This document shows positions 38,287 through 43,708 of a stretch of 64,000 bases of DNA, piece after piece. The notes under the pieces are model-generated. The model did no database searches, was not told the DNA's origin, and was given only the letters and a program-made list of their open reading frames with translations. Source of the DNA: Sediminitomix flava (GTDB taxonomy: Bacteria > Bacteroidota > Bacteroidia > Cytophagales > Flammeovirgaceae); NCBI RefSeq assembly GCF_003149185.1, contig NZ_QGDO01000002.1, positions 372,001 through 436,000 on the forward strand, in the 5' to 3' direction. A program made the position numbers and the translations under genes. Each line of letters opens with the position of its first letter. Positions within the stretch are counted from its first letter, which is position 1.

Positions 38287-38319
38287 AAAAAAAACTCTTC
38301 CTTATTTTAGGAAGAGTTT
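38287..38319 (-). terminator. Terminator of the FtsZ-like gene
   Basis: A perfect 11-bp stem AAACTCTTCCT / AGGAAGAGTTT with a 6-nt loop and a run of T on the minus strand, 25 bp after the stop codon. Confidence 0.85.
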
Positions 38320-38344: not shown

Positions 38345-39469
38345 TTATTGGTCATTCAGAAACTTTTTAACTTTATCAAGAATATCCTCATAAACCTCCT
38401 CTTGAGAGCTAAACTGTCTTCGGTCATAAGAAAGTAAATCACTACCTAGTCGATCTATTTTTAGTCCTTCAATTGGTGTTTTTATAATCTTTTCCTCAAT
38501 AATTTTAGGTTCTGTGCTTCTTGATAAGAAAACAGTAACCTCAAGCTCATCAGATTCAAAATTTCCATCGGTGCTGACCCCAAAAATAACATTGGTATCT
38601 TTCCCTGTACATTCTCTAAAACCATCTGTTAAGACATCCAATTCTTCCATATCAAAATGGTCTAAATCAGATACCGTCAAGTATAAGATCATGTATTCTA
38701 AAGTGTGAAGTGAGCTTGGAAGTTGATTGAAGTAGCTTGCACAATTTAGCAATGCTTCATTCGCTCTTTCCTTTCCCTTTGTTGCTGTACTAAATACATT
38801 CAGAAGATTATTAGGGTACGCTGTCACATCTAAGATATCTTCCAAATCAACATTTATTACCCCCTCAGTACAAACTACTTTCAGAATATTCTTAATACTC
38901 TGATGCATTAAGTTTGACAATGTAAAGCCTAAATGATTATTCAGCTTTCTGATATTCTGAGGAATATCGGCAATTGAAAAAGGAATAATTCCATGAAAAG
39001 TACCTCTACAATGTAATACACCTTCTTGCATAGCTTCAGCAGCTAATTTTTCATCCGTCTCAGTTGTAAATAGCATCACCAAACTCATGCAACTTCTCTG
39101 TTTTGCATATTCAGCAACTTGGACACTCAATTGACCTGCTAATTCTGCGGGCATTAAGAAGAATAATAATGATGTTTCACTATGAGAAATGGATCTCATT
39201 AAAGGATTTAGAAACTTTTGATTAGGATGTGAAAGGGCTTGACCATTCTCTTGGTTGAGGAGAATTTTGTCTTTGAACGGGGAATCATTCAATTCTTTTT
39301 CATCACCAGATGCTGCAAAAGACTCAACCTCTTGGTACAACCTAGAAGTAATTTGAGAGAGCATCTGAATCCCTTCTTGCTCAAGTCCAATAACCTTTGT
39401 AGAGATATCATCTCCGTTAAAGGAATTGAACCCTCGATCTGCATCGTGCAGATTATCAAAATGACTCAT
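38345..39469 (-). CDS. Divergent FtsZ-like protein without nucleotide-binding loops
   Basis: A 374-residue protein colinear with FtsZ along its whole length. STKVIGLEQEGIQ (23-35) aligns with the FtsZ T1 segment KVIGVGGGGGN, and LLFFLMPAELAGQLSVQVAEYAKQ (in two parts, 101-124) with the T4 GGGTGTG segment; both Gly-rich loops are gone. The central helix region (185-199) and the T7 loop EGVINVDLEDILDV (202-215) are kept, including Asp208 and Asp211, which match the two catalytic Asp of FtsZ. NVFSTATKGKERANEAL (224-240) and IFGVSTDGNFESDELEVTVFL (295-315) match the C-terminal FtsZ domain. The extra tail (316-374) differs from the FtsZ peptide that binds FtsA/ZipA. So it may associate with FtsZ filaments but should not bind GTP. 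It is monocistronic, with terminators on both sides. Family membership is my alignment by eye. Confidence 0.75.
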   Translation of the reverse strand: MSHFDNLHDADRGFNSFNGDDISTKVIGLEQEGIQMLSQITSRLYQEVESFAASGDEKELNDSPFKDKILLNQENGQALSHPNQKFLNPLMRSISHSETSLLFFLMPAELAGQLSVQVAEYAKQRSCMSLVMLFTTETDEKLAAEAMQEGVLHCRGTFHGIIPFSIADIPQNIRKLNNHLGFTLSNLMHQSIKNILKVVCTEGVINVDLEDILDVTAYPNNLLNVFSTATKGKERANEALLNCASYFNQLPSSLHTLEYMILYLTVSDLDHFDMEELDVLTDGFRECTGKDTNVIFGVSTDGNFESDELEVTVFLSRSTEPKIIEEKIIKTPIEGLKIDRLGSDLLSYDRRQFSSQEEVYEDILDKVKKFLNDQ

Positions 39470-39691: not shown

Positions 39692-39724
39692 AAAAAGGCT
39701 CTCTAACACTGAGTTAGAGAGCCT
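39692..39724 (-). terminator. Terminator of tyrS
   Basis: A perfect 12-bp stem AGGCTCTCTAAC / GTTAGAGAGCCT with a 5-nt loop and T run on the minus strand. The rest of 39470-39691 shows nothing notable. Confidence 0.87.
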
Positions 39725-39748
39725 CATTTTCTTTCTCACAAAGAAAAA

Positions 39749-41263: not shown

Positions 41264-43708
41264 ATGGGAAAGATCCGAGGATTGAGTCTTGAAAACTTCA
41301 GAGTTTTCAAAGAACGAACGCACTTCCAATTTAGTCCTATCACTGTGCTTACAGGAACCAATAGCTCTGGTAAAAGCTCTCTTTTCAAAGCTTTACTCCT
41401 ACTTCAAGATAATGGGCAAAAAAACGGACTTCGAGAGTTAGATTTCAGAGGACATTATCATAATCTTGGGAATTTGAAATCTTCCATGCATTTCGACTCC
41501 GATGAAGAAAGTAACCTTGCTTTTGAAGTAGAGGTTTCTCCCGATGCGCACAGACCTTTCCCAAATTTTGAACTTGGCGGAAAAGTAATCGTCATCAAGC
41601 TCTCAGAATTGACGGATGTAAAAGACTTCCCGAGCCTTCTGAAAATATATAATTGGAAAAATTGGATGTTTTTTCTCGAACATCATTTTCGTCAGACGGC
41701 AAGAAAACTATATCGTTTTATTAAAAGTCTACCAGAAGATTTTCAGTACGAACATCGTTTCACGCTGAAAAGGTATCTTAAACTTCTTCCTCAGATCGCT
41801 TACCAAGTCAAAATCACGACTGAAAATATTGAAGAGCTTTTCACAGACTTATTTTCAATTACAGCTTGGCTCAAAAAAAACGATGTTACTTGGGAAATGC
41901 CCGAACAAACATTCACACATCCGAATCAAGGCTATTTTGCTGTTTTACTTAAAAATTATTGGTACAAAAAGTATCAGCTATCATCACTGCAAAAAGCAAT
42001 TACATTTGGTGAACTGCTTAAATGTGATCGAACAGATGATAAATGTCCATTGAATGAAACCGAGCGAAAACAACTACACACTTGGGAAGAAATCCTTAAA
42101 AATCATTCATACAAAGAAATTAATGATTTGAAAGGTGCATTCAATGAATGGATGAAGTCTGAAAGTTTAGAAGTACCTAAGCTACTCCAAGACATTTACG
42201 GACTTGAAGAAGCTGATTTGAGATATGCTTATCAACCTGAAGGAATAGACGTTACAGAAAATATTTATGTGCGTTTCGTTTACGATGGCAGAACAGCAAA
42301 GCTAAAAGATGTTATTGTATGGTTTAAAGAACGTTATACTGACAACCTCAAATTACTCTATACGCCATTAAGTAATTGTAGACTTCAACATATTTTAGGG
42401 CAAGATGGAAATAGTTATTACTTAGGAAGAAGACATCAAGAATACTTAAAAACCGAAGGTGATGCACCTATTTTCACTTCATTCTATGATTTTGAGCACC
42501 TTCATCAGTACGGTGTACGTAAAATCACAAACCGACCAGAACGAAGTGCTTTCATTGTAGACGAGAAAAAATTACTTGAAAAAGTCCCTTTTCTTAAAGA
42601 AAGACATCCTTGCATGAAGCAACTCAGTGAGCTGATTCATAAAAAATTCCTACTCTTACTCGGAAGTAGAGTCAACTCTTACCTCACCGAATTTGAGGAA
42701 AACTTGATGAGTGTCAATGAATATGTAAAAGGAAATATGTCACATTTCCTCCCAGAATTGGACGAAAACAATGAAATCAAATTTACATCGATAGGTTTTT
42801 TGTTGAAAGATCTTCCTCTATTCAATTCTGAAGACATAGATATTCTCAAGCGAAAGTTTCCAGAAACATCATACGAGCAACTTCTAATTACTCCTCAAGT
42901 CCTTTTTTCACAAGAAGAATGGGCAGAGTTATATCAAGTATCTGTGGAAGATGTCATTTTTGACGATCTAGATTCAGCACTTGAATTGGCCTTGAAAGGC
43001 TTGCAACAAATCTTAGATGGCATTGGTAGTTGTTTCAATTTCGGTTTGCTCGAAGCCCATAGAGGTAACACACAGCGAATCATTTTGCATACCGACGAAA
43101 GCGTTTTGAGTAAACTTCTTTTCGATTATGGGAAAAATGCAGATGATCATGCAAAGGACTTTGTTACCAAATGGATTCGTGAGTTTGGAATTGGTCATGA
43201 AATCGAAGTCAACACGATTAAAGGAATTGCACACGATGTCATCATCACTGATAAAAGAGGACATCAACTTGACCTAGCTTCTCTTGGTTACGGAATTTCT
43301 CAACTTCTTCCAATTCTGCTCAAAATAGGCTTACGAAAAGAACCGAGTCTACTGATTGAAGAACCCGAAACCAACTTGCACCCCAAACTTCAATCGATGT
43401 TGGCAGACCTTTTAATAGATGGCTACAATCGGTTTAACACAAGTTTTCTGATTGAAACACATTCAGAATACCTCATCAGAAAGCTTCAATATTGGGTTGC
43501 CAAAAAGCAAGTTCCTTTAGATACCATCACTATTTATTATTTGTACAACCCTGAGAAAATACCCGAAGAAGCACAGCAAGTAGAACGATTGCATATCAAA
43601 GAAAGTGGGGAACTCGATAAATCATTTGGAACAGGTTTTTATGATGAAGCGGATAATATTTCGATTGAACTCTTTCAAATGGGGCAAGACGAACACGATG
43701 ATTTCTAG
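41264..43708 (+). CDS. AAA family ATPase with DUF3696-type C-terminus (defence candidate)
   Basis: An 814-residue SMC/OLD-type ATPase. Walker A is GTNSSGKSS (31-39) at the N-terminus, then a long helical insert (about 100-640), ABC-like signature region LASLGYGISQLLPILL (about 672), Walker B LLIEEPETNLHPKL (about 696-709) and the H-loop IETHSEYLIRKL (about 730). The final segment (LHIKESGELDKSFGTGFYDEA) is like DUF3696. Such ATPases act as sensors in several two-gene anti-phage systems. The next gene, 99 bp on, is an unknown protein with a PLD-like layout. No phage-defence neighbour besides it is present. Function by analogy only. Confidence 0.85.
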   Translation: MGKIRGLSLENFRVFKERTHFQFSPITVLTGTNSSGKSSLFKALLLLQDNGQKNGLRELDFRGHYHNLGNLKSSMHFDSDEESNLAFEVEVSPDAHRPFPNFELGGKVIVIKLSELTDVKDFPSLLKIYNWKNWMFFLEHHFRQTARKLYRFIKSLPEDFQYEHRFTLKRYLKLLPQIAYQVKITTENIEELFTDLFSITAWLKKNDVTWEMPEQTFTHPNQGYFAVLLKNYWYKKYQLSSLQKAITFGELLKCDRTDDKCPLNETERKQLHTWEEILKNHSYKEINDLKGAFNEWMKSESLEVPKLLQDIYGLEEADLRYAYQPEGIDVTENIYVRFVYDGRTAKLKDVIVWFKERYTDNLKLLYTPLSNCRLQHILGQDGNSYYLGRRHQEYLKTEGDAPIFTSFYDFEHLHQYGVRKITNRPERSAFIVDEKKLLEKVPFLKERHPCMKQLSELIHKKFLLLLGSRVNSYLTEFEENLMSVNEYVKGNMSHFLPELDENNEIKFTSIGFLLKDLPLFNSEDIDILKRKFPETSYEQLLITPQVLFSQEEWAELYQVSVEDVIFDDLDSALELALKGLQQILDGIGSCFNFGLLEAHRGNTQRIILHTDESVLSKLLFDYGKNADDHAKDFVTKWIREFGIGHEIEVNTIKGIAHDVIITDKRGHQLDLASLGYGISQLLPILLKIGLRKEPSLLIEEPETNLHPKLQSMLADLLIDGYNRFNTSFLIETHSEYLIRKLQYWVAKKQVPLDTITIYYLYNPEKIPEEAQQVERLHIKESGELDKSFGTGFYDEADNISIELFQMGQDEHDDF

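Follow-up and report, generated by a model that had tools for sequence, protein, structure and literature searches.

Known bacterial regulators of FtsZ are mostly unrelated proteins. Two of these, MciZ and SulA, act at the longitudinal interface, and MciZ caps filaments via the bottom face (PMC8936486). Neither is derived from FtsZ and both bind the bottom face, whereas the protein studied here, P0001, resembles that face and would engage the top face. ARC3, a chloroplast chimera with FtsZ sequence, inhibits FtsZ assembly (PMC5471200 and papers cited in PMC5877594), and a paper cited in PMC8142252 reports that it enhances the GTPase activity of FtsZ2. Like ARC3, P0001 is an FtsZ-derived protein that coexists with a real FtsZ; going by description, it differs in its separate origin and in having no Pfam domain at all, whereas ARC3 carries a C-terminal MORN region. 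ARC3 is a precedent, and the statement in the earlier note that no such role had been described was too strong. The parts of that interpretation that were borne out are an FtsZ paralogue with a dead GTP pocket, an intact T7 loop and a canonical ftsZ elsewhere.

Like P0001, FtsZl1 and FtsZl2 (Makarova and Koonin 2010, PMC2875224) are divergent bacterial paralogues of the FtsZ superfamily, but they keep GGGTG(S/T)G, the motif with which that search was made. At this position P0001 reads PAELAGQ, so a signature-motif search misses it. FtsZl1 lacks recognisable T6-H7 elements and an FtsZ-type C-terminal domain (PMC2875224), and P0001 is the converse. With FtsZ itself (TIGR00065; PF00091 + PF12327), P0001 shares the colinear fold, the T7 triad, the docking-face segments and apparent descent from the lineage's own ftsZ; it differs in lacking the T1/T4 glycines, the PA[YF]xR tail peptide and a Pfam match, and in scoring 40 bits against TIGR00065, far under the equivalog cut-off of 295 bits.

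P0001 is encoded in a 64,000-nucleotide stretch of Sediminitomix flava DNA, hereafter the window (Table 1). The base composition of its gene is close to that of the neighbouring genes. It lies downstream of tyrS, and terminator-like hairpins after tyrS and after the P0001 gene suggest that it is a single-gene unit. We regard decay into a pseudogene as very improbable and disfavour it: the lack of orthologues in related genomes, the lost catalytic pocket and the fast divergence would fit decay, but the 374-codon frame has stayed intact at saturation-level divergence (the chance that 374 random codons contain no stop is 1.6e-8), the conservation is sharply focused, and the gene has its own terminator. 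In addition, dN/dS was 0.21-0.44 between related paralogues analogous to P0001 (the L104/L107 and L106/L107 pairs were left out because of frame misalignment), which indicates that these related pocket-less paralogues are functional genes. Elsewhere in the window, about 1.8 kb from the P0001 gene and beyond tyrS, an AAA_15/OLD-type ATPase gene (PADLOC NsnB E = 3.8e-48, AriA 5e-24) and the gene that follows it form a candidate two-gene defence system.

Table 1. Positions of the P0001 gene, its segments and other loci; coordinates are in the window unless another contig or locus is named.
Feature	Position	Strand	Remarks
P0001 CDS, pocket-less FtsZ paralogue, 374 aa	38345..39469	-	Intact ORF, native composition
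T1 equivalent GLEQEGI, residues 28-34	39368..39388	-	Canonical GVGGGGGN gone; alignment to own FtsZ
T4 equivalent PAELAGQ, residues 107-113	39131..39151	-	Tubulin/FtsZ signature GGGTGTG gone; alignment to own FtsZ
T7 synergy loop region TEGVINVDLED, residues 201-211	38837..38869	-	N206, D208, D211; 9/11 identical to own FtsZ
T7 NVDLED, residues 206-211	38837..38854	-	D208 and D211 confirmed
H10 loop and N-terminus TVSDLDHFDMEEL, residues 265-277	38639..38677	-	Second docking-face segment; 10/13 identical to own FtsZ
S9 DTNVIFGVSTD, residues 291-301	38567..38599	-	Third docking-face segment; 9/11 identical to own FtsZ
C-terminal tail, 58 residues, ends VKKFLNDQ	38348..38521	-	Without canonical PA[YF]xR peptide
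Terminator-like hairpin (intrinsic), 3' of upstream tyrS	39695..39725	-	13 pairs and T-run
Terminator-like hairpin (intrinsic), 3' of FtsZ-like gene	38292..38319	-	11 pairs and T-run
AAA_15/OLD-type ATPase gene	41264..43708	+
Gene after the ATPase gene, 358 aa	43808..44884	+	No Pfam match
P0002 gene	G000:C2:15059-16003 = L032:7060-8004	-	Adjoins DoxX-like gene
FtsZ-in-PtuA	L127:2779-5148	+	PADLOC PDLC00269, E about 1e-142 to 1e-144 (four loci)
FtsZ-in-PtuA	L128:2742-5078	+	As above
FtsZ-in-PtuA	L129:1840-4221	-	As above
FtsZ-in-PtuA	L135:2734-5103	+	As above

We searched P0001 against profile, sequence and structure collections. It matched the NCBIfam ftsZ profile (TIGR00065) at E = 2.4e-10 and PDB FtsZ chains at E = 2.1e-6 over residues 22-314 by sequence search, and a profile of P0001 with P0002, a second paralogue of the same genome, matched PDB FtsZ over the full length at E = 2e-12. 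The Pfam Tubulin and FtsZ_C domains fell below threshold, and no Pfam domain was recognised. Foldseek of the predicted core gave E of about 1e-20, with every listed match an FtsZ. Chance is ruled out as the source of the homology, and the PDB sequence matches together with Foldseek place the FtsZ fold (N-terminal Rossmann-like domain, H7 and C-terminal domain) in P0001; the structure search that the earlier note had proposed as a check on an FtsZ/tubulin fold thus returned FtsZ, and its description of a 374-residue protein colinear with FtsZ agrees with the alignment and the profile matches. The AF2 core model is of medium confidence (pLDDT 68.6) with unreliable domain orientation, and the full-length model (pLDDT 50) was left out of the geometry. 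The alignments behind the models were shallow, with P0002 and the own FtsZ left out. In the core model, H7-T7 lies in a low-confidence region below pLDDT 50, and the whole-chain rmsd against FtsZ is about 13 A. Both alignment and model indicate that the N-terminal domain keeps the FtsZ secondary structure while the pocket is gone.

To describe the active site, we counted the positions that are at least 90% conserved in canonical FtsZs. P0001 retains 1/5 of these in T1 and 0/7 in T4, whereas the N, D and D of T7 are all present (3/3). The GTP pocket is therefore dead, with T1 and T4 equivalents reading as the earlier note gave them, and the NxDxxD pattern of T7 is kept with both aspartates. Given the overall retention of the C-terminal domain, retention of T7 alone has p = 0.077 in P0001 and p = 0.021 in P0002. 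Since T7 retention by itself is only modestly unlikely, the claim stands on the whole docking face.

In the source genome (6.6 Mb), a single canonical ftsZ passes the Pfam cut-off; it lies elsewhere and adjoins ftsQ- and ftsA-like genes in the order ftsQ-ftsA-ftsZ. The genome also encodes P0002, a paralogue absent from the earlier note: 314 aa, likewise pocket-less, with T1/T4 lost and the N, D and D of T7 (NMDFED) kept. In a tree of the region from T7 to the end, P0001 and P0002 grouped together (99/95) and then with the own FtsZ (94/90). The sisterhood of the two may be an artefact because their branches are very long; both are nearest the own FtsZ. The tree points to shared ancestry of P0001 with the co-resident FtsZ, an assignment that the long branches weaken. 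No P0001 orthologue was found in 58 related genomes or in any other genome searched, and no close relative in a peptide-pattern scan of contigs from 84,980 species; a second contig scan with FtsZ-type patterns gave 8 loci, none of which lacks the canonical GTP or T7 motifs. No match to P0001 was found in IMG/VR, phages or plasmids, and hence nothing points to an origin in a virus or plasmid.

We then compared P0001 with the own FtsZ segment by segment. The T7-bearing subunit of a filament makes its longitudinal contacts through H10 (region A), S9 (B), H8 (C) and T7 (D), and the kept segments of P0001 fall in regions A, B and D (PMC8936486; PMC5414002). The results showed that P0001 equals the own FtsZ at 28/35 positions of the T7, N-terminal H10 loop and S9 segments, whereas the C-terminal domain outside them is identical at 17/89 (19%); the description of a well-preserved C-terminal domain held for the docking-face segments and failed for the remainder. 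The N-terminal domain was identical at 31/159 positions (19.5%), against 35% for the part from the end of H7 onward, a reversal absent from canonical FtsZs. The ratio of docking-face identity to that of the rest was 4.19; setting 57 canonical FtsZs against this own FtsZ gave 0.51-1.24. The nearest canonical orthologue, from another genus, matched the own FtsZ at 27/35 docking-face positions and 67/89 in the rest of the domain. Clustering as tight as that of P0001 was reached in 0/5000 shuffles with three-segment sets, a test that only partly corrects for segment edges drawn with the alignment in view. At 8 docking-face sites the own FtsZ departs from that orthologue, and P0001 follows the own FtsZ at 7 of them. 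Recent gene conversion between the two genes is unsupported, since 14 of the 28 identical docking-face residues are written with different codons. P0002 kept its docking face far less well (15/35 vs 21/88 for the rest, p = 0.03). The PA[YF]xR peptide missing from the P0001 tail is present in 57/61 canonical FtsZ tails; the end of P0001 bears a faint likeness to the NRFLHDNVD terminus frequent in canonical FtsZs of the group.

On the simplest reading, the docking face would be under selection to match whatever recognises the own FtsZ there, and a lineage-matched docking face extending beyond the two aspartates is the pattern expected of a protein that docks on FtsZ. It is doubtful that the FtsZ fold was instead repurposed for unrelated binding, as a scaffold or adaptor, with the kept residues reflecting folding and not docking. 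The extreme divergence outside the three segments, the N-terminal FtsZ secondary structure without a pocket and the long unusual tail would suit such a protein, but the kept segments coincide with the published longitudinal contact regions and carry lineage-specific states of the own FtsZ, and a ratio of 4.2 is more than structural glycines and core positions alone should yield, given a maximum of 1.46 among canonical pairs.

P0001 is a real, unusual protein, for which we put forward a cap as a hypothesis. The leading reading, to which we give a probability of roughly 45%, is that P0001 uses its bottom face to engage the nucleotide face of FtsZ, either as a plug that sequesters FtsZ or as a minus-end cap. 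It would be a neofunctionalised duplicate of the lineage's own ftsZ that gave up nucleotide binding, and thereby lost its top interface, while its bottom interface (T7, N-terminal H10 loop and S9) stayed matched to the co-resident FtsZ. Through that face, P0001 may dock on the nucleotide-binding face of free GTP-FtsZ monomers and so sequester them; alternatively, it may sit as a one-sided cap at the minus end of a filament, where the nucleotide is exposed. Its intact aspartates might complete the GTPase site and possibly stimulate hydrolysis. As nothing can add onto the dead top face, P0001 would reduce the pool of available FtsZ, set the turnover of filaments, or both, and might in this way affect division. 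The nucleotide-exposed end of FtsZ is the shrinking end, and top-interface-dead mutants are reported as non-toxic, bottom-dead ones as toxic (PMC8936486). For this reason, a monomer-sequestering or minus-end role would be expected, not a strong terminator of growth, and the effect of P0001 may be weak, a modulation and not a block. The absence of a MinC match in the source genome counts for a plug or cap. Against it, the docking face is much less well kept in P0002, and paralogues in defence-like operons elsewhere suggest another use of the same face. If the plug or cap is true, a self-derived, pocket-less FtsZ copy that retains the docking face alone would by nature be a dominant-negative or a one-sided cap, and would offer a ready tool for testing the polarity of FtsZ filaments.

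To see how often such proteins occur, we surveyed 390 genomes of the order, 204 of family f13 and 396 across the class, mostly from other orders. Pocket-less FtsZ-like genes recurred in the genomes of the order and of f13, many of them reduced to T7 and the C-terminal domain. Outside the order, the additional FtsZ matches (G394, G504, G539, G548, G584, G721 and G743) proved to be short fragments, split genes or a full-length canonical-type second copy, and were not counted. The paralogue of G075 is sister to the FtsZ of that genome (100/97), and the f13 paralogues are nested in f13 FtsZ. A single origin shared by all the pocket-less paralogues was rejected (AU p = 0.0024, with a long-branch caveat), and by these trees such proteins have been made from ftsZ several times in the order. 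Across 19 pocket-less rows, T7 retained D216 in 18/19, D219 in 18/19 and N214 in 16/19 (own-FtsZ numbering). The docking-face ratio was 1.5-2.7 in most of these paralogues, against a median of 0.85 and a maximum of 1.46 in canonical pairs; the G075 paralogue (1.17) lacked the bias. Annotation overlooks the class, as searches by profile or signature depend on the GTP pocket.

The surroundings of the f13 relatives bear on the strongest rival to a plug or cap. Short f13 paralogues adjoin WYL regulators at 17 loci. Seven loci (L102, L104, L106, L107, L108, L109 and L125) share a conserved, compact layout of an FtsZ fragment (T7 and C-terminal domain), a sigma-70 region-2 fragment of about 107 aa, a WYL regulator and a GmrSD-like gene, which can be read as two host-protein mimics within one defence-like unit. 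At L105, L110, L111, L112, L114 and L115, an FtsZ C-terminal-domain fragment is fused to, or lies in frame before, a winged helix of the FtsK-gamma type (L105, L111 and L112 were tested, and PF09397 exceeded its cut-off in all three). Four genomes carry the Septu ATPase PtuA with an entire FtsZ domain inserted in frame, its GTP motifs largely intact, and PtuB follows directly downstream; the insert is possibly an integrated FtsZ decoy or sensor. A fifth copy (L098) is broken at its start. In PMC13423816, modelling places phage T7 Gp0.4 on the synergy-loop face of FtsZ, and this complex sets off the defence protein CapRel-Ebc. Because of this binding mode and its sensing by CapRel, the f13 settings look like decoys or sensors; alternatively, they may be dominant-negative effectors.

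By the same logic, P0001 itself could be a decoy or guard that mimics the FtsZ bottom face and soaks up or senses phage or host FtsZ inhibitors, sparing FtsZ. We consider this unlikely, although it is the main rival. Some FtsZ inhibitors bind exactly this face, the f13 paralogues with the same kept face have the neighbours listed above, and a docking face matched to the own FtsZ is what a decoy requires. However, P0001 stands alone between terminators and outside any recognised defence operon; phmmer found no WYL, GmrSD or PtuB gene near P0001 or P0002, and neither protein matched a PADLOC model. Thus P0001, unlike some f13 relatives, belongs to no known defence system by location or match, and the 19% identity in the rest of its C-terminal domain would blunt a decoy for ligands that touch beyond the docking face. 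If P0001 is a decoy, bacteria would have a counterpart to the integrated decoys of plants, one that ties cell division to phage defence, a timely idea now that CapRel has just been shown to sense an FtsZ-phage protein complex.

For the group as a whole, we tentatively propose recurrent FtsZ bottom-face mimics, made repeatedly from ftsZ in the order by dropping GTP binding and freezing T7, H10 and S9. These would serve as FtsZ plugs and/or phage-inhibitor baits, some of them wired into GmrSD/WYL modules with the sigma-70 fragment and into Septu modules.

Two further kinds of FtsZ were noted. L132, L133 and L126 (also L050 and L051) encode short FtsZ paralogues (~310 aa) that have T7, and GTP motifs that are mostly intact, but lack the C-terminal tail. 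L042 is one of the two full-length FtsZs of genome G069; it lacks PA[YF]xR, and its terminal sequence KFASFWKKLKDSLW resembles an amphipathic membrane-binding helix.
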